This document shows, one piece after another, positions 57,210-64,000 of a stretch of DNA of 64,000 bases (position 1 is the stretch's first letter; each line of letters begins with the position of its first letter). A program made the translations under genes and the position numbers. The stretch is taken from contig NZ_JODM01000004.1 in assembly GCF_000717995.1 (NCBI RefSeq), forward strand, positions 169,460 to 233,459. Reading direction: 5' to 3'. The notes under the pieces were generated by a model. The model made no database searches. It was not told where the DNA came from and saw only the letters and a list, made by a program, of their open reading frames with translations. The DNA is from Streptomyces violaceorubidus (GTDB lineage Bacteria > Actinomycetota > Actinomycetes > Streptomycetales > Streptomycetaceae).

Positions 57210-58685
57210 GTGAGCATTTCCGAGCCCTTGGACGACCCGTGGGCCGACAGCGGCCCCAGCGATCGTCTGCCTGCTTCCCGCCGCCGCAGCGAGGGCGGCC
57301 GCGGCCGGGACGATCAGCACGAGCGCGGCCCGGACAGCGGGTGGGACGGCGGAGGCGCGGCGTTCGAGCGGGTGCCGCCGCAGGATCTGGACGCCGAGCA
57401 GTCCGTCCTCGGCGGCATGCTCCTGTCCAAGGACGCCATCGCCGACGTCGTCGAGATCCTCAAGGGCCACGACTTCTACAAGCCGGCCCACGAGACGGTC
57501 TACCAGGCCATCCTCGACGTCTACGCCAAGGGCGAGCCCGCCGACCCGATCACGATCGCCGCCGAGCTCACCAAGCGCGGGGAGATCAACAAGGTCGGCG
57601 GCGCCTCGTATCTGCACACCCTCGTCCAGACCGTACCGACGGCCGCGAACGCCGCGTACTACGCGGAGATCGTGCACGAGCGGGCGGTCCTGCGCCGGCT
57701 GGTGGAGGCCGGCACCCGGATCACCCAGATGGGATACGCGGCCGACGACGACGTCGACGAGATCGTCAACCGTGCCCAGGCCGAGATCTACGCCGTCACC
57801 GAGCAGCGCACCAGCGAGGACTATCTGCCGCTCGGCGACATCATGGAGGGCGCGCTCGACGAGATCGAGGCGATCGGGTCGCGCAGCGGCGAGATGACCG
57901 GTGTGCCAACGGGTTTCACGGACTTCGATTCGCTGACCAACGGCCTGCACCCCGGGCAGATGATCGTCATCGCCGCACGTCCCGCGATGGGCAAGTCGAC
58001 CCTCGCGCTGGACTTCGCGCGGGCCGCCTCGATCAAGAACAACCTGCCGAGCGTCATCTTCTCCCTGGAGATGGGACGCAATGAGATCGCGATGCGACTG
58101 CTGTCCGCCGAGGCCCGCGTCGCGCTGCACCACATGCGGTCGGGCACGATGACGGACGACGACTGGACCCGGCTGGCGCGCCGGATGCCGGACGTGTCGG
58201 CCGCCCCGCTCTACATCGACGACTCCCCGAACCTGTCGATGATGGAGATCCGCGCCAAGTGCCGTCGCCTCAAGCAGCGCAACGACCTCAAGCTGGTCGT
58301 CATCGACTACCTCCAGCTGATGCAGTCCGGCGGTTCGAAGCGTTCCGAGAGCCGGCAGCAGGAGGTCTCGGACATGTCCCGTAACCTCAAGCTCCTGGCG
58401 AAGGAGCTGGAGATCCCGGTCATCGCGCTCTCCCAGCTGAACCGTGGTCCCGAGCAGCGCACCGACAAGAAGCCCATGGTCTCCGACCTGCGTGAGTCCG
58501 GTTCGATCGAGCAGGACGCGGACATGGTCATCCTGCTGCACCGGGAGGACGCCTACGAGAAGGAGTCGCCGCGCGCGGGCGAGGCGGACCTGATCGTAGC
58601 CAAGCACCGTAACGGCCCGACGGCGACCATCACGGTCGCCTTCCAGGGCCACTATTCGCGCTTCGTGGACATGGCCCAGACCTGA
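57210..58685 (+). CDS. dnaB: Replicative DNA helicase DnaB
   Basis: 491 residues from GTG 57210, behind GGAGGAGG; the longer open frame to 56808 is in the spacer. The N-terminal domain begins after a polar tail (PQDLDAEQSVLGGMLLSKDAIADVVEIL). The RecA-like motor carries Walker A ARPAMGKSTLALDF, Walker B VVIDYLQLM and the arginine finger region SRQQEVSDMSRNLKLLAKEL, then LSQLNRGPEQRTDKKPMVSDLRESGSIEQDADMV. No intein is present. It is the hexameric helicase loaded at oriC by DnaA and probably a DciA-like factor. A Tn7-like element begins 29 bases after the stop codon. Confidence 0.97.
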   Translation: MSISEPLDDPWADSGPSDRLPASRRRSEGGRGRDDQHERGPDSGWDGGGAAFERVPPQDLDAEQSVLGGMLLSKDAIADVVEILKGHDFYKPAHETVYQAILDVYAKGEPADPITIAAELTKRGEINKVGGASYLHTLVQTVPTAANAAYYAEIVHERAVLRRLVEAGTRITQMGYAADDDVDEIVNRAQAEIYAVTEQRTSEDYLPLGDIMEGALDEIEAIGSRSGEMTGVPTGFTDFDSLTNGLHPGQMIVIAARPAMGKSTLALDFARAASIKNNLPSVIFSLEMGRNEIAMRLLSAEARVALHHMRSGTMTDDDWTRLARRMPDVSAAPLYIDDSPNLSMMEIRAKCRRLKQRNDLKLVVIDYLQLMQSGGSKRSESRQQEVSDMSRNLKLLAKELEIPVIALSQLNRGPEQRTDKKPMVSDLRESGSIEQDADMVILLHREDAYEKESPRAGEADLIVAKHRNGPTATITVAFQGHYSRFVDMAQT

Positions 58686-58714
58686 GAGCCGGTCATGTAG
58701 GGTCTCAGATTTCG

Positions 58715-58773
58715 TGTCGGAATCTCACGGTCGATGTCGGATGGAAGTCGGATCCGACACCGAGCTGAGATTC
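58715..58773. repeat. Transposon end with TnsB-site-like repeats
   Basis: TGTCGGA occurs at 58715 and 58735, 20 bases apart. GTCGGATCCGAC (58747-58758) is a 12-base palindrome that carries an inverted copy of the motif. GAATCTCA (58720-58727) has its complement TGAGATTC at 58766-58773. Arrays of imperfect repeats behind a terminal TGT are the mark of Tn7-like ends. Confidence 0.65.
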
Positions 58774-58883
58774 GCAGGTCGCTGCTGTACCTCATTCGAG
58801 TGAAAGCGTTGCTGGTGTGCTCCCGTCGGCATCTTGGGCGGGAGCATCGTGCTGCCAGGGGCAACTCCAACTCGGGAGTGGGG

Positions 58884-59591
58884 ATGGAAGCGACGGTCAG
58901 CTTTCGTGGGCACGGTGGCGGGGTTGAAGAGTGTTCCTGGGCGTCTGTGGCACCGGCGTTGCTGCAGACGGCTCATCCGTGGCGGACGTTCCGCTGGTAC
59001 AGGGACCAGAAGCACTACTCGGGCACCTACTGGTCGGCGACGATGCGCGACCACGTGATCTACGAGTCACGACTTGAGCTGTCGCGTTTGCTCTTCGCCG
59101 ATTTTGATCCGTCCGTACGCGCCATCGTGGCCCAGCCCTTTCTGCTGCAGACGGTGGTGGAGGGGAGGATGCGTCGGCACATTCCGGACTATCTCCTTCT
59201 CACCGGACAGGTGCCGGTGGTGGTCGACGTCAAGCCGTTGCAGCGGTTGTCCAAGCCGGAGGTGGCGTTCACCTTCGACTGGACCCGGAGGGCGGTGGAA
59301 TCGCGGGGATGGAAGTACGAGGTCTGGAGCGAGCCTCCGGCCGCAGAGCTGGAGAACATCCGGTTCCTCGCGGGTTACCGCAGGGATTGGCTGTTCAGCC
59401 CCGAGATTCTGGAAGAGCTGCGTGATGCGGATGTCGATGGGCTTGTTCTAGGGCAGGCCATGGAGTGTCTGCCGGATCGTCCAGAGCCTCAAGTCCGTGC
59501 TGCGATCCACCATTTGCTCTGGACGCAGGTCTTCTTAACTGATCTCGACCGGCCGCTCGGCCCTTCGCACGTCCTGAGGAGGGCAGCGTGA
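58884..59591 (+). CDS. tnsA: TnsA-like transposase endonuclease subunit
   Basis: 235 residues from ATG 58884 (MEATVSFRGHGGGVEEC), with GGGAG before it; the open frame to 58734 lies inside the transposon end. Restriction-endonuclease-like fold with the catalytic residues E61 (IYESRLELSRLL), D102 (RRHIPDYLL) and K117 (VVVDVKP). It cuts the 5' strands at the element ends and turns TnsB-type joining into cut-and-paste transposition. All key residues are intact. The stop overlaps the tnsB start. Confidence 0.9.
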   Translation: MEATVSFRGHGGGVEECSWASVAPALLQTAHPWRTFRWYRDQKHYSGTYWSATMRDHVIYESRLELSRLLFADFDPSVRAIVAQPFLLQTVVEGRMRRHIPDYLLLTGQVPVVVDVKPLQRLSKPEVAFTFDWTRRAVESRGWKYEVWSEPPAAELENIRFLAGYRRDWLFSPEILEELRDADVDGLVLGQAMECLPDRPEPQVRAAIHHLLWTQVFLTDLDRPLGPSHVLRRAA

Positions 59592-61717
59592 GTAGGGCGG
59601 CCGCTCGCGTCGGTGTTGGTACGCGCTTCCGCTATGACGGGGAATCCGTCGAGGTGGTGGAGATGGCTGCGACCACAGCGGGCAACGAAGTGGTCTTGAA
59701 GGACGACCATGGGCGGCTTCTGAGGCTGTCGCTCAAGGAACTGCTGTTCTCCGACCGCGCTGCGATCAGTCCTGATGGCCCAGGACCGTCCGCAGATGAC
59801 GAAGGCGAGATCGCCTCCGTGGTCCTCGGACAGCTCGATACGGAGGAGAAGCAGAAGGTCCTGGAGCGAGCTGGGCATGTCCGTGAGGTGCTGACCGGTT
59901 ATCGCTCCGGCAGCGGGGAGCTGGCGGCTGACGACGAGCCGAGGGTCAGCTACGACGTGGCAGTGCCGATGGAGGCGAGGAAGGCAGCCAAGGCGGCGGA
60001 ACTTGGCGTGACGACCCGCACCATTGAGCGCTGGGTCGCTGGATTTCTCCAGCATGGCGAGGCCGGGCTTGCACCAAGGAGGACGCGGTCGGAGCGGTCG
60101 CAGACCTCGGTCGATGATCGGTGGGTGGAGACCGCGGTGGAGGTGATGGTCGAGCACACCGATCAGTCGCGGCCGTCGCGGACTGTGGTGATCGAGCGGA
60201 CCCGGGCTCGGGTGATTGCGCGGTTCGGTGAGGGGGTGGTGGCGCAGCCGAGTCGGGCGACGGCGTTTCGGCTGCTGGAGGAGCTGGAGCGACGACATCC
60301 GCTGTTCCGGCTGAGTACGAAGCGCAACCGGGATATTGCCGGTCGGCCGGAGGGGCAGTATGGCAAGTTGCGGCCGACGCGGCCGGGCGAGTACCTGCTG
60401 ATGGACTCCACCCGCCTGGACGTCTTCGCGTTCGACCCGCTGACGCTCAAGTGGGTTCAGGCCGAATTGAGTGTCGGGATGGACTGGTACACCCGTTGCG
60501 TCACGGGGATCCGGCTGACGCCGGTATCGACAAAGGCAGTGGATGTCAGCGCGGTGCTTTTCCAGTCGTTTCGGCCGAGGCCGGCGGGGCGGGACTGGCC
60601 GCGGCACGCCGTCTGGCCCGAGCACGGCATCCCCCGCACCGTCCTGGTCGACGTCGAGGGCGCTACCGGGCCGGGCTTGGCCTCGCCTCCTTTGGTCCCC
60701 GAGACGCTGGTCGTCGACCACGGCAAGGTCTATGTCTCGGAGCATCTGACCAGCGTCTGCCGCCGGATGGGCATCTCCATCCAGCCGGCCCGGCTGCGGA
60801 CGGGCCGCGACAAGGGGCCGGTTGAGCGCTATTTCCGGACCCTGCGGGAGGGGCTGCTGCAGGTGCTGCCCGGCTACAAGGGGCCCGACATCCACTCGCG
60901 GGGCGAGAACCCGGAGGACGACGCGTTCTTCTTCCTCGACGAGCTTGAGGCAATCATCCGGGAGTGGACCGCGGCGGTCTATCACTGCAGGCAGCACTCC
61001 AGCCTGGTCGATCCAGGCCTGCCGGGACTGCGGATGTCCCCGGCGAAGATGTTCGAGCACGGCATGGCGCGGGCGGGCTACATCGAAGCACCCCGCGACC
61101 GGGACCTGGCCTTTGAGTTCCTGCAGACGAAGTGGCGCACGGTCCAGCACTACGGGGTCGAGATCGGCCGCCGCCGCTACAGCGGCCCCGGCCTGCCCGA
61201 GCCGGGCATCCGCAGCCCCTACGACAGTCCGGTCAAGAACGGCTGGCCGTTCCAAGTGGACCCCGACGACATCACCAAGATCTACTTCCGCAACCCCACA
61301 ACCCGCGAATGGCACACCCTGACCTGGGAGCACGCACCATCGACCGAAATGCCGTTAAGTGAGGACGCGTTGGCATTCGCCCGGCAGCTGGCTGCCTCGA
61401 AGTATCGCTTTCCCGACGACCGGCTCGCTGTCGCCGACTTGCTTCAGCGGTGGAACCTCGGACTGGGCACCACGATCGCCGAGCGGCGCATGGCCCTGCG
61501 GCTCTCGCGCGAGCAGGCCGCCATCGAGCTTCCGGAGAGTGAGGCGGAGACCGTCGTCTCGCTTCCGTCCGTACGCAAGGCCCTTGGCCAGGACAAGGAG
61601 GCCACGGAACCGCGGGAGCCCGACGTGGTGACGGAGACGGGGGACGACGACGAGGCCGATCTGGAGGACCTCGCCGAAGAGAACGACTTCTACGCCGATG
61701 CTCTGGAGGACGTGTGA
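59588..61717 (+). CDS. tnsB: TnsB-like DDE transposase
   Basis: 709 residues, GTG 59588. The N-terminal part holds DNA-binding helix-turn-helix segments (AKAAELGVTTRTIERWVAGFLQHG at 134-157). The RNase-H-fold catalytic domain has the DDE triad D273 (LLMDSTRLD), D377 (LVVDHGKVY) and E413 (GPVERYF). A Mu-type C-terminal domain follows (LTWEHAPSTEMPL). The last 60 residues are acidic (DDDEADLEDLAEE) and probably bind TnsC. It binds the ends and performs 3' strand cutting and joining. It looks active. Confidence 0.93.
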   Translation: MSRAAARVGVGTRFRYDGESVEVVEMAATTAGNEVVLKDDHGRLLRLSLKELLFSDRAAISPDGPGPSADDEGEIASVVLGQLDTEEKQKVLERAGHVREVLTGYRSGSGELAADDEPRVSYDVAVPMEARKAAKAAELGVTTRTIERWVAGFLQHGEAGLAPRRTRSERSQTSVDDRWVETAVEVMVEHTDQSRPSRTVVIERTRARVIARFGEGVVAQPSRATAFRLLEELERRHPLFRLSTKRNRDIAGRPEGQYGKLRPTRPGEYLLMDSTRLDVFAFDPLTLKWVQAELSVGMDWYTRCVTGIRLTPVSTKAVDVSAVLFQSFRPRPAGRDWPRHAVWPEHGIPRTVLVDVEGATGPGLASPPLVPETLVVDHGKVYVSEHLTSVCRRMGISIQPARLRTGRDKGPVERYFRTLREGLLQVLPGYKGPDIHSRGENPEDDAFFFLDELEAIIREWTAAVYHCRQHSSLVDPGLPGLRMSPAKMFEHGMARAGYIEAPRDRDLAFEFLQTKWRTVQHYGVEIGRRRYSGPGLPEPGIRSPYDSPVKNGWPFQVDPDDITKIYFRNPTTREWHTLTWEHAPSTEMPLSEDALAFARQLAASKYRFPDDRLAVADLLQRWNLGLGTTIAERRMALRLSREQAAIELPESEAETVVSLPSVRKALGQDKEATEPREPDVVTETGDDDEADLEDLAEENDFYADALEDV

Positions 61718-62832
61718 GCGAGAAACGTGTTCCGGAGCCGGACAGTCTCGCCCTGTCGCGGAAAGAGGACTTCAAGGCATTCGCCGAGAGCCCCCGCCGC
61801 AGTCGGCCCGATCTGCTGACCCGCAAGGAGCTGAAGTCCCTGGCCACGCAGGCGCGGGCGGACTACGACCGGCAGCGCAGGAAGTGGCACGCGAACATCG
61901 GCCCGGTCAAGACGCCGCAACTGGCTGAGCTCCACGAGGACTTGTGGGACATCGTCGACAGCAACGAGCAGGACGGTGACAAGGCCAAGGGGGCGGTGGC
62001 CGTCGACGCATTCCCGGGGCTGGGCAAGACGACCTCGGTGCTGGCCTTCGCCCGCGACTTCCACCAGCGCGAGATCGAGGAGTCGGGCCCGTTCACGAGC
62101 CAGGGACACGAGCGGATCCCCGTCTGCCGGGTCGGGCTGACCGGGAACACCGGGATGAAAGATCTCAACCGAGCCATGCTGGAGTTCTTCGGCCACCCCG
62201 GGCAGGGGCGGGGCACCACCGCCCAGTTCGGACGGCGGGTGCTGGACTGTGTGTTGTCCTGCGAAGTCCGCCTGGTGGTTCTGGACGATCTGCACTTTTT
62301 GAAGTGGGGGCAGAAGAGCGGCATCGAGGTGAGTAATCACCTGAAGTGGATCGCCAACGAGTTCCCGGTGACGTTGCTGATGGTGGGGGTCGAACTCGCG
62401 GAGAAGGGCCTGTTCGGTGAGGGAACGAACGGGCGCGACACAGCCCTGGCCCAGACCGGCCGCCGCACCACCCGCCTGGGGCTGCGTCCGTTCACCATCG
62501 ATACGGAGGCCGGGCGCCGGGAGTGGCGGCAGATGCTGCTGGCCCTTGAACAGCGTGTCGTGCTCACCGACAAGCACCCCGGCATGCTCGCGGACGACCT
62601 GTCGGACTACCTCTTTGCCCGCAGCACCGGACACATCGGCTCGCTGATGACGCTGATCAACCGGGGCTGCCAGCGGGCGGTCCGCACCGGTGCCGAGCGT
62701 CTGGACCAGGAGCTGATGGACCGGGTGAAGAACGACGAGGCGTCCGAGGCGGCCCGCCTCGAACTCCAGGCGGCGTTGGAGAAGCGGCGGCTGACCAGCC
62801 GCCCGCGATCCCGGAGCCGACGAGCCGCATGA
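61714..62832 (+). CDS. tnsC: TnsC-like AAA+ transposition regulator
   Basis: 372 residues, GTG 61714 overlapping the tnsB stop. Walker A DAFPGLGKTT (99-108) and Walker B LVVLDDLHFL (D191, D192), then an AAA+ lid and TGHIGSLMTLINRGCQRAV. The basic C-terminal tail (RLTSRPRSRSRRAA) could contact DNA. TnsC forms ATP-dependent filaments on target DNA chosen by TniQ and recruits TnsA and TnsB. It is intact. The stop overlaps the tniQ start. Confidence 0.92.
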   Translation: MSEKRVPEPDSLALSRKEDFKAFAESPRRSRPDLLTRKELKSLATQARADYDRQRRKWHANIGPVKTPQLAELHEDLWDIVDSNEQDGDKAKGAVAVDAFPGLGKTTSVLAFARDFHQREIEESGPFTSQGHERIPVCRVGLTGNTGMKDLNRAMLEFFGHPGQGRGTTAQFGRRVLDCVLSCEVRLVVLDDLHFLKWGQKSGIEVSNHLKWIANEFPVTLLMVGVELAEKGLFGEGTNGRDTALAQTGRRTTRLGLRPFTIDTEAGRREWRQMLLALEQRVVLTDKHPGMLADDLSDYLFARSTGHIGSLMTLINRGCQRAVRTGAERLDQELMDRVKNDEASEAARLELQAALEKRRLTSRPRSRSRRAA

Positions 62833-63907
62833 GAGAGCTGGCCCGCACCCTGCCGATCCGGCTGCCTCCACTACCTGGTGAGGCCCTGGACTCCTGGCTG
62901 GAGGCAACGGCTCGCCGGATGGACACCACACTCGGTGATGTTCTGCTGCACTGCGGCTTCCCCGTCCGTCAGCGGGCCGGAAACCAATTCCGGGGCATCC
63001 CGACGGACTGGACGATCTTCCTTGACGAGCGGTTGACCGCAGCCGTCGCGCACGCCTCCGGCACGGCCCCGGAGGCGGTCACTGCCATGACGCTGGCGCA
63101 CTACGACGGACGGGCCCTGCAGATGAGCAGCGGAGGCCGGGCCGTGTCGCGGCATGTCCTTTGGGGCCGCGGACGGGGATCCCGGTTCTGCCCGGACTGC
63201 CTGCGCTCCAGCGGTGGGCGCTGGCAGTTGTCCTGGCGGCTCGGATTCTCCTTCGCATGCACCCGGCACCGCCGCCTGCTGGCGGACCGCTGCCCGCACT
63301 GCGGGCAGGTTCCGCGCCAGCGACCCCGTTCCGGGCGGTCCGTTCCCCGGCCTGAACTCTGCGGCAATCCACCGATCCGCCCCGGCGGTCTGATCTCGGC
63401 GGGCTGCGGCACGGATCTGACCCATGCTCCAACGCTTCCCCTGCCTGCTGGCCACCCTGTCCTTGCGGCGCAGGACCGGGTGATGGAGATCATCGAAACG
63501 CAGACGGCGGCCTTCGTCCTTACCGGACTGCCCCGCAACGGGCACCAGCGGTGCTGGCCGACATCCGGGCCCTGGGCATCCGTGTCCTGAGCGATCTTCC
63601 CGCCGCCGCCCTGCGGGAACAGATGCCGGCCGACATCGCAGAAGCGCACCTCGCCACCGATCCGGTCGCCCCGCACCTCGAACGGGCGGCGGACCGCCCG
63701 GGGTTCATAGCCCCACCGCGAGCCGCGGACACCGCAGTTGCGGTCACCATGGCCCTGGGCATCCTTCAACAGCCGGGAATCCATCCGGCTGGCGAGGCCC
63801 TGCGGGGCCTGCTGGAAGCAGTACGCGAGGAACTCACGCAGATCTCGGTCACGAGCATCGACGACTGGGGCCGGGGCATCAGCCCGGTGCTGCAGTCCGT
63901 GCACCTA
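62829..63907 (+). pseudogene. tniQ: tniQ (TnsD-like target selector), frameshifted and IS-interrupted
   Basis: The first frame reads 240 codons: a TniQ start (RTLPIRLPPLPGEALDSWLEATARRMDTTL) and zinc pairs C121/C124, C144/H147 and C155/C158 (CPDC, CTRH, CPHC). It then shifts near 63549. Reading on in the next frame gives the natural continuation RALGIRVLSDLPAAALREQM. Adding one G at 63549-63551 restores a single frame (HQR-VLADIRALG). The frame is then cut at 63907 by an insertion sequence. TniQ chooses the target site, so the element is unlikely to move by itself. Confidence 0.85.
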
Positions 63908-64000
63908 GGGCCTGTTGCGAAAGTGGATCTTGTTCGTTGATGATCACGTCCTGTGAGACGTGGGGATCTGACGAATGGCCAGTGGGCCCGGCTTGAGCCT
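63908..64000 (+). mobile_element. Left end of an IS5-type insertion sequence
   Basis: From 63908 the sequence GGCCTGTTGCGAAAGTGG has the look of a Streptomyces IS5-group terminal repeat, and 45 bases on a transposase frame opens. CTAG at 63905-63908 is a common target for this group. The other end is outside the window. Confidence 0.75.
63953..64000 (+). CDS. IS5-family transposase, N-terminal fragment (runs off right edge)
   Basis: GTG 63953 opens a frame of 16 codons, VRRGDLTNGQWARLEP, which matches the usual beginning of Streptomyces IS5-family transposases (helix with LTxxQWxxLEPLLP). No stop before the window ends. Confidence 0.75.
   Translation, partial: MRRGDLTNGQWARLEP

Follow-up and report, generated by a model that had tools for sequence, protein, structure and literature searches.

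The 64,000-nucleotide stretch of Streptomyces violaceorubidus DNA analysed here (contig NZ_JODM01000004.1, positions 169,460 to 233,459; hereafter the window) carries a Tn7-like element with its tnsA side directly 3' of dnaB, the gene for the replicative DNA helicase. The question raised by this locus is whether the element lies behind dnaB by accident or homes to that gene. Our reading, to which we assign a probability of roughly 0.87, is that the window holds a Tn7-like transposon, now decayed, of a kind that homes to the dnaB 3' end. The original prediction, made from the letters of the window, had proposed homing of this kind. The relatives bear it out: they recur across many species, on plasmids as well, behind a number of differing dnaB genes, in one orientation, at a near-constant distance and, wherever both ends could be located, with 5-bp duplicates, G028 being the single exception encountered.

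A Tn7-like element next to dnaB

In the window, tnsA, tnsB and tnsC are open, overlapping frames in a single operon, intact as predicted, with the tnsA side towards dnaB. The tnsA product is recognized as a TnsA-type endonuclease by NCBIfam model NF033179 (251.8 bits, cut-off 110); with PF08722 it scores 26.2 bits, slightly below the cut-off of 26.5. The tnsB product reaches 17.3 bits with rve and 16.6 bits with Mu-transpos_C, each below cut-off, and its relatives are annotated as Mu transposase C-terminal; it is a predicted DDE transposase. The tnsC product is of the TnsC/TniB type, with PF13401 (46.8 bits) and PF05621 (40.3 bits) both above cut-off. A selector gene with a TniQ domain follows (PF06527, 75.5 bits for the piece in the window and 72.7 bits in the intact relative L103), and it is broken, first by a frameshift near 63550 and then by an insertion sequence (IS) at ~63908. 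Compared with the TnsD of ~880 amino acids (aa) in intact relatives, the notion of an intact tniQ in the window has to be rejected. With its TnsD broken, the window copy should therefore no longer home alone.

The transposon ends and target duplicates

The element's true end is TGTAGGGTCTCA at 58696, 10 bp past the dnaB stop codon. The boundary is placed there because relatives at very different sites share their sequence from that TGT on and differ before it. The end had been predicted at 58715, 29 bp behind the stop codon, which was off by 19 bp; the TGT at that position is the first internal repeat. The expected duplicate TTTCG (58710-58714) falls with it, since the real end is preceded by GGTCA (58691-58695). 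The internal repeats, TGTCGGAATCTCA / TGTCGGATGG, are putative TnsB-type sites.

Contig C4 stops where the window does, and the remaining half of the element is on contig C26. A far-end search of the same genome with one mismatch allowed gave two places, of which the one on contig C51 was dropped because its mismatch falls within CCTACA. On C26, GAGAACCTACA is followed by GGTCG, with 4 of 5 bases matching the left GGTCA. Comparison with empty sites, as the original prediction had suggested, supports this assignment, as the gene adjoining the C26 right end is the one found downstream of dnaB where the site is empty (79-80% to L137 and L144, over 1.4 kb). The order on C26 is IS end, tnsD resuming at about codon 360, and transposon end, with tnsD codons 390-877 at 81% to L103 in the compared stretch. 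Without the IS, the window's element is ~8.2 kb.

TGT...ACA ends with repeats are likewise found in the relatives, where the 5 bp ahead of the left TGT recur after ...CCTACA, or a near form of it, at the far end. Perfect 5-bp duplicates flank thirteen elements at dnaB genes, among them L035, L038, L039, L040 and L045 in the first set of dnaB-linked loci and L103, L104, L109, L117, L126 and L108 (of a more distant lineage, ACCGC) in a further set. The left 5 bp also recur at the far end in eight relatives at other sites (L036, L037, L042, L047, L048, L057, L066, L069). Some of the duplicated dnaB elements are short: L117 (201 bp), L104 (615 bp), L126 (1,894 bp) and L109 (3,266 bp) have no tns match and are possibly non-autonomous derivatives mobilised in trans.

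Distance from the dnaB coding end

We counted the nucleotides (nt) from the A of the ATG within the F-V-D-M codons up to the transposon end; 52 loci were tried and 50 measured, L108 and L127 not fitting the expression. This distance was 22-26 nt in 49 of the 50. In the window, the ATG is at 58671-58673 and the end lies 25 nt further on; in Mycolicibacterium aubagnense, where CTG replaces the ATG, it is 24 nt. The length of the dnaB tail varies. With 6, 7 or 8 residues counted from the F (I in one case), and leaving out L116, the stop-to-end distance is 12-14, 7-11 or 5-7, and the codon-to-end distance is 24-26, 22-26 or 23-25, respectively. For example, a tail one residue shorter (L213, L214, L223) raises the stop-to-end distance to 12-14, and a tail one residue longer lowers it to 7 (L049) or 5 (the second dnaB of G195). 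As the codon distance stays nearly constant though the stop codon shifts, the dnaB coding end is probably what the element recognizes. In an alignment of 13 dnaB ends, well-conserved letters encode AKHRNGP ~70 nt upstream, with no length change between.

How often dnaB is the site

Protein queries were used for the search of relatives, as a Pfam search for TnsA matched nowhere in the window's own genome nor in control genomes. A TnsA relative was present in 162 of 295 Streptomyces genomes, from which the 30 nearest tnsA-relative loci were fetched. In 15 of these, dnaB lies at most 1.5 kb upstream of tnsA (in one case a 40% paralogue), and a 16th (L004, in G195) is joined to dnaB through contig ends. 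The search for tns sets next to dnaB that the original prediction called for was thus rewarded, with 16 of 30 nearest loci behind the gene.

Of 392 Streptomyces genomes, 42 have dnaB followed by a TGTRGG end. The offset from the stop codon was 8 (8 cases), 9 (5), 10 (24), 11 (4) or 19 bp (1), so that the predicted repetition of the spacing holds, at 8-11 bp in 41 of 42 and not at about 29. By our own estimate, with 22 allowed offsets, chance would give a few TGTRGG matches per ~300 dnaB ends, and some of the 42, such as L116 (offset 19) and L120, L127 and L130 (without further repeats), may be of this kind. In the 19 loci with tns matches, the tnsA side faces dnaB every time, the orientation predicted; the other 23 ends had no clear tns match within the stretch fetched. 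One orientation (19/19) and a fixed distance (49/50), as in TnsD-type homing, are therefore both present.

The site is also found empty (L137, L141, L144). Among the window's genome and 30 relatives, the exact dnaB end of the window occurs in 16 of 31, three of them with a TGT end and one (L145) with a scar-like TGTAGAGCCTCAG. A strict dnaB-end pattern gave 32 stretches of named genomes, 30 from Streptomyces and two from Actinacidiphila. At the level of the class, TnsA was detected (E<=1e-30) in 21 of 394 genomes, and dnaB was upstream in 7 of the 20 other TnsA-bearing genomes (families f1, f6, f16, f20), which places dnaB elements in three further families beyond that of Streptomyces. We conclude that dnaB is a main site of this element family, though not an exclusive one.

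Plasmid dnaB genes as sites

One case of repeated insertion is G195, in which one contig is exactly the element and shares a 127-bp overlap with two left and two right neighbours, so that identical copies stand behind two different dnaB genes. Copy 1, flanked on either side by GGCGG, is behind a chromosomal-type dnaB, and copy 2, flanked likewise by CCGTG, is behind a second dnaB; the duplicates indicate this pairing of left with right ends. The second dnaB (483 aa, 47% identical) is on contig C32. Over the first 12 kb of C32, 72% aligns at 91% identity with TraB-carrying plasmids of S. cellulosae, and its dnaB stretch is 84-86% to plasmids of S. anulatus and NBC_00536. Contig C32 may therefore be a candidate plasmid, or an integrated copy of one.

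Elements behind dnaB were also found on Mycolicibacterium alvei pJCM12272 (end 7 bp past the stop codon of a plasmid dnaB), on a plasmid of M. aubagnense, on a record named Tsukamurella plasmid 14, and on contig G017:C538, which resembles plasmids of S. glaucescens and S. lividans 1326. We inspected 17 annotated plasmid regions (the best 16 of 175 TnsA-matching records and the best one of 69 TnsD-matching records). Two of the 17 lack annotation altogether. An annotated dnaB lies directly upstream in 3 of the 17, and when three dnaB proteins were compared by tblastn with the upstream stretch of the first 11, only L205 matched. Most of the examined plasmid copies sit elsewhere than dnaB. For example, the plasmid element of Streptomyces sp. 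NBC_01217, whose TnsD is 63% identical to that of L103, is not at dnaB.

According to the available text of PMC7478629, DnaB-like helicases occur on large actinobacterial plasmids. Because dnaB is present on the chromosome and again on such plasmids, one selector could serve both halves of the Tn7 lifestyle; we propose tentatively, at somewhat less than even odds, that a single TnsD reading the coding ends of helicase genes provides both a chromosomal home and a plasmid vehicle, with neither TnsE nor CRISPR plasmid targeting. In the M. aubagnense record, the bleomycin-resistance gene (BLMT) predicted by PLSDB coincides exactly with tnsC (L235:6343-7467), which looks like a labelling error.

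The TnsD selector

L103, matching Streptomyces acidicola, is a complete dnaB element of 8,361 bp with the duplicate CCGCT. It contains tnsA, tnsB, tnsC, a gene for an 882-aa TnsD, a DUF3626 gene and a 100-aa open reading frame (ORF). Its TnsD has the TniQ domain at residues 9-151 and a LysR-type helix-turn-helix at 810-869, and its sequence matches LysR DNA-binding domains in the PDB. The AlphaFold model is mostly helical (mean pLDDT 81.5, pTM 0.69). The best Foldseek match in the PDB is the TnsD-TnsC-DNA complex 8v32, a weak one (E 7e-3, root-mean-square deviation 29 over 584 columns) that serves as a pointer only.

Among 7,988 candidates scored, 445 proteins match this TnsD at E<=1e-30. Several such proteins (P0022, P0032, P0044, P0051) are named 'LysR family transcriptional regulator' in public databases, and some public forms are ~665 aa and lack the TniQ domain; one of these is P0047 of DH41 (671 aa), where contig L033 reads 883 aa. 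The LysR-type tail was considered as a marker of dnaB use and rejected, as L037, behind an OmpA-family gene, has a similar TnsD tail by eye. Similarities of the proteins do not run in parallel (L038: TnsA 69%, TnsC 95%, TnsD 84%), and parts seem to have been exchanged between elements.

Weighing the readings

By analogy with Tn7, homing to dnaB would proceed as follows in the intact relatives. TnsA and TnsB would cut and join the TGTAGG...CCTACA ends and TnsC would bridge, while the large TnsD, with its TniQ domain in front, a helical DNA-reading arm and, in the window's subfamily, a C-terminal winged helix of the LysR type, would read the final dnaB codons through contact by the arm. The tnsA end would then be placed 22-26 nt past the FVDM codon, and dnaB would stay whole.

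Several observations weigh against this reading. A perfect duplicate was obtained at only 5 of the first 13 dnaB-linked loci and only 6 of 28 further ones; some of the other eight in the first set are contig-cut or decayed and one, L034, bears a different 5 bp at its right end, and several of the rest in the second set are also decayed or contig-cut. In G028, which has one element stacked on another at a spacing of 5 bp, CCGGA follows the nearest right end, compared with GCCGT on the left. L116 measures 34 nt from codon to end, and the plasmid case L238 (Tsukamurella) 29 nt. Related elements at unrelated sites, which the original prediction had named as evidence that would count against it, were in part encountered: beside the 16 of 30 nearest loci at dnaB, 12 end at other sites, six of these with perfect duplicates, and two have no clear end by which to assign a site. 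Finally, the dnaB label changes 7 times over the 24 rows of the TnsD tree, a value reached or beaten in 135 of 500 shuffles, and 6 times over the 18 window-type rows (377 of 500 shuffles); the sole pure clade is the one closest to the window (5/5 at dnaB). Frames below 500 aa were left out of the tree (the window's own, L050, L052, L070, L114, L121), and L046, which has no assigned site, was left out of the label shuffles; L033 and L108 were counted as dnaB. The scattered label means that dnaB is the old site with many departures, or that TnsD is not the only determinant of where the element lands.

Under the latter possibility, the site would be chosen by something such as a protein of the host or a feature of the DNA at the ends of dnaB genes, and TnsD would only tether TnsC. 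The elements at dnaB do not group together on the TnsD tree, and the TnsD proteins at dnaB sites span 720-899 aa with different tails, as this alternative would lead one to expect. We nevertheless regard it as improbable, given the near-constant distance and single orientation, the LysR-type DNA-binding domain on the arm in the window's subfamily, and the precedent that the TnsD of Tn7 itself reads the glmS coding end (PMC11406308, available text).

If one element had inserted behind dnaB long ago and had since been passed down the Streptomyces lineages while decaying, this would account for most cases lying within one genus and for the 23 of 42 ends with no clear tns match. Such a history is very improbable and largely refuted, however, as complete cases carry differing 5-bp duplicates, empty sites exist, plasmids and other families have elements behind dnaB genes that differ, and there are the two identical copies in G195 and stacked elements in G028 and G195. 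The least probable explanation is an RNA-guided element, a CRISPR-associated transposon with a spacer against dnaB: several such transposons use guide RNAs for attachment genes (PMC11406308, available text), but the six genes and ORFs of L103 take up its 8,361 bp, so that a Cas operon would not fit, neither CRISPR repeats nor cas models having been searched as such.

Features of the window

The features of the locus are collected in Table 1. The GTG start of dnaB was picked by eye from the AGGAGG upstream, and its product scores 360 bits with Pfam DnaB_C.

Table 1. Features of the dnaB locus, in positions of the window
Feature	Position	Strand	Basis
dnaB, replicative DNA helicase, attachment gene	57210..58685	+	Pfam DnaB N and C domains; sequence
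Probable target read by the selector: final dnaB codons (...AKHRNGPT...FVDMAQT stop)	58596..58695	+	Distance over differing dnaB genes; inference
Left 5-bp target duplicate GGTCA	58691..58695	+	Right copy GGTCG on contig C26
Transposon end by tnsA: terminal TGTAGGGTCTCA, internal repeats TGTCGGAATCTCA / TGTCGGATGG	58696..58800	+	Eight element ends aligned; shared boundary at different sites
tnsA	58884..59591	+	NF033179, PF08722; start codon uncertain
tnsB, predicted DDE transposase	59588..61717	+	HTH_28 above cut-off; gene order same in relatives
tnsC, AAA ATPase (TniB-like)	61714..62832	+	PF13401, PF05621
tnsD/tniQ, 5' part (TniQ domain)	62829..63590	+	PF06527; comparison with intact 882-aa relative
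tnsD/tniQ, continuation in another frame, to the IS	63551..63908	+	Frame matches close relatives 85-89%; IS boundary (~63908) by eye
Insertion sequence end	63909..64000	.	Recognized by eye; contig stops here

Other sites, stacking and cargo of the relatives

Three Streptomyces loci (L060, L064, L221) have a more distant tnsABC lineage 7-8 bp past the stop codon of gap, encoding glyceraldehyde-3-phosphate dehydrogenase (identified by Pfam for L060 and by eye for L064 and L221). This gene is possibly a second new attachment gene. In L065 and L066, the element ends just past a tRNA-Met gene (ARAGORN, both loci), and L065 has a second tRNA-Met 12 kb further on. Other sites are shared by the pairs L036/L055, L063/L070 (for L063, a glycosyltransferase-2 gene) and L050/L057, so the element family has several further recurrent sites.

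Two elements are stacked at one dnaB site, 5-7 bp apart, at L034:12375-12395 and L193:100-140; a neighbouring diverged relative therefore does not block insertion. Anti-phage genes of the Lamassu type, LmuA and LmuB, are among the cargo of the dnaB element L035, and L045 carries an OLD/AAA-like protein.

Comparison with known elements

The elements resemble Tn7 at attTn7 (glmS) in having TnsA, TnsB, TnsC and a TniQ-domain TnsD, TGT/ACA ends, 5-bp duplicates, and the tnsA-side end by the target gene just past its coding end. The Tn7 TnsD is about 508 aa. Unlike Tn7, these elements target dnaB, 10 bp past the stop codon (25 bp for glmS, as given in the original prediction), have a TnsD of ~880 aa with a LysR-type C-terminal domain, and in some plasmid copies sit behind plasmid dnaB genes. 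Neither the glmS target nor the TnsE pathway of Tn7 proper was found; no TnsE-like gene is among the L103 frames, where only the 100-aa ORF and the DUF3626 gene behind tnsD pass the coding filter, no TnsE model having been run.

In host phylum they can be likened, by description only, to Tn7-like clade 2, an Actinobacteria-dominated and experimentally uncharacterised group for which the available text names no attachment gene (Benler 2021, PMC8649781). Tn7706 of Rhodococcus erythropolis, with nine copies on plasmids and islands, is also actinobacterial and has tnsA, tnsB, tniQ and tniB, but dnaB is not mentioned in the available text (PMC12915292). The sites for Tn7-type elements in the available text of PMC11406308 are glmS, yhiN, comM, parE, tRNA, guaC, yciA, ffs, rsmJ and plasmid resolution sites; the present elements share with those at parE, yhiN, comM, tRNA, guaC, yciA, ffs and rsmJ the habit of homing to a conserved gene, and dnaB is not listed there. 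Among open PMC papers we found none that gives dnaB as a site for Tn7-type elements; preprints, the majority of subscription papers and supplementary site lists were beyond the search and could name it. In the parts available, PMC10991518 has DnaB as a negative control, and PMC6464166, PMC9867215 and PMC7478629 mention dnaB in senses other than a Tn7 site. The transposon is of a known kind, and dnaB appears to be a new attachment gene for it.

Significance

Through this finding, an essential and very conserved gene joins the few Tn7-type attachment sites known, and actinobacterial Tn7-like elements, a clade described as experimentally uncharacterised in the available text of PMC8649781, acquire a defined landing site. 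The 8.4-kb set of L103 could be tested as a tool for site-specific insertion in Streptomyces. That plasmid dnaB genes are used as well points to a simple route by which a single targeting protein may provide for both residence and spread.

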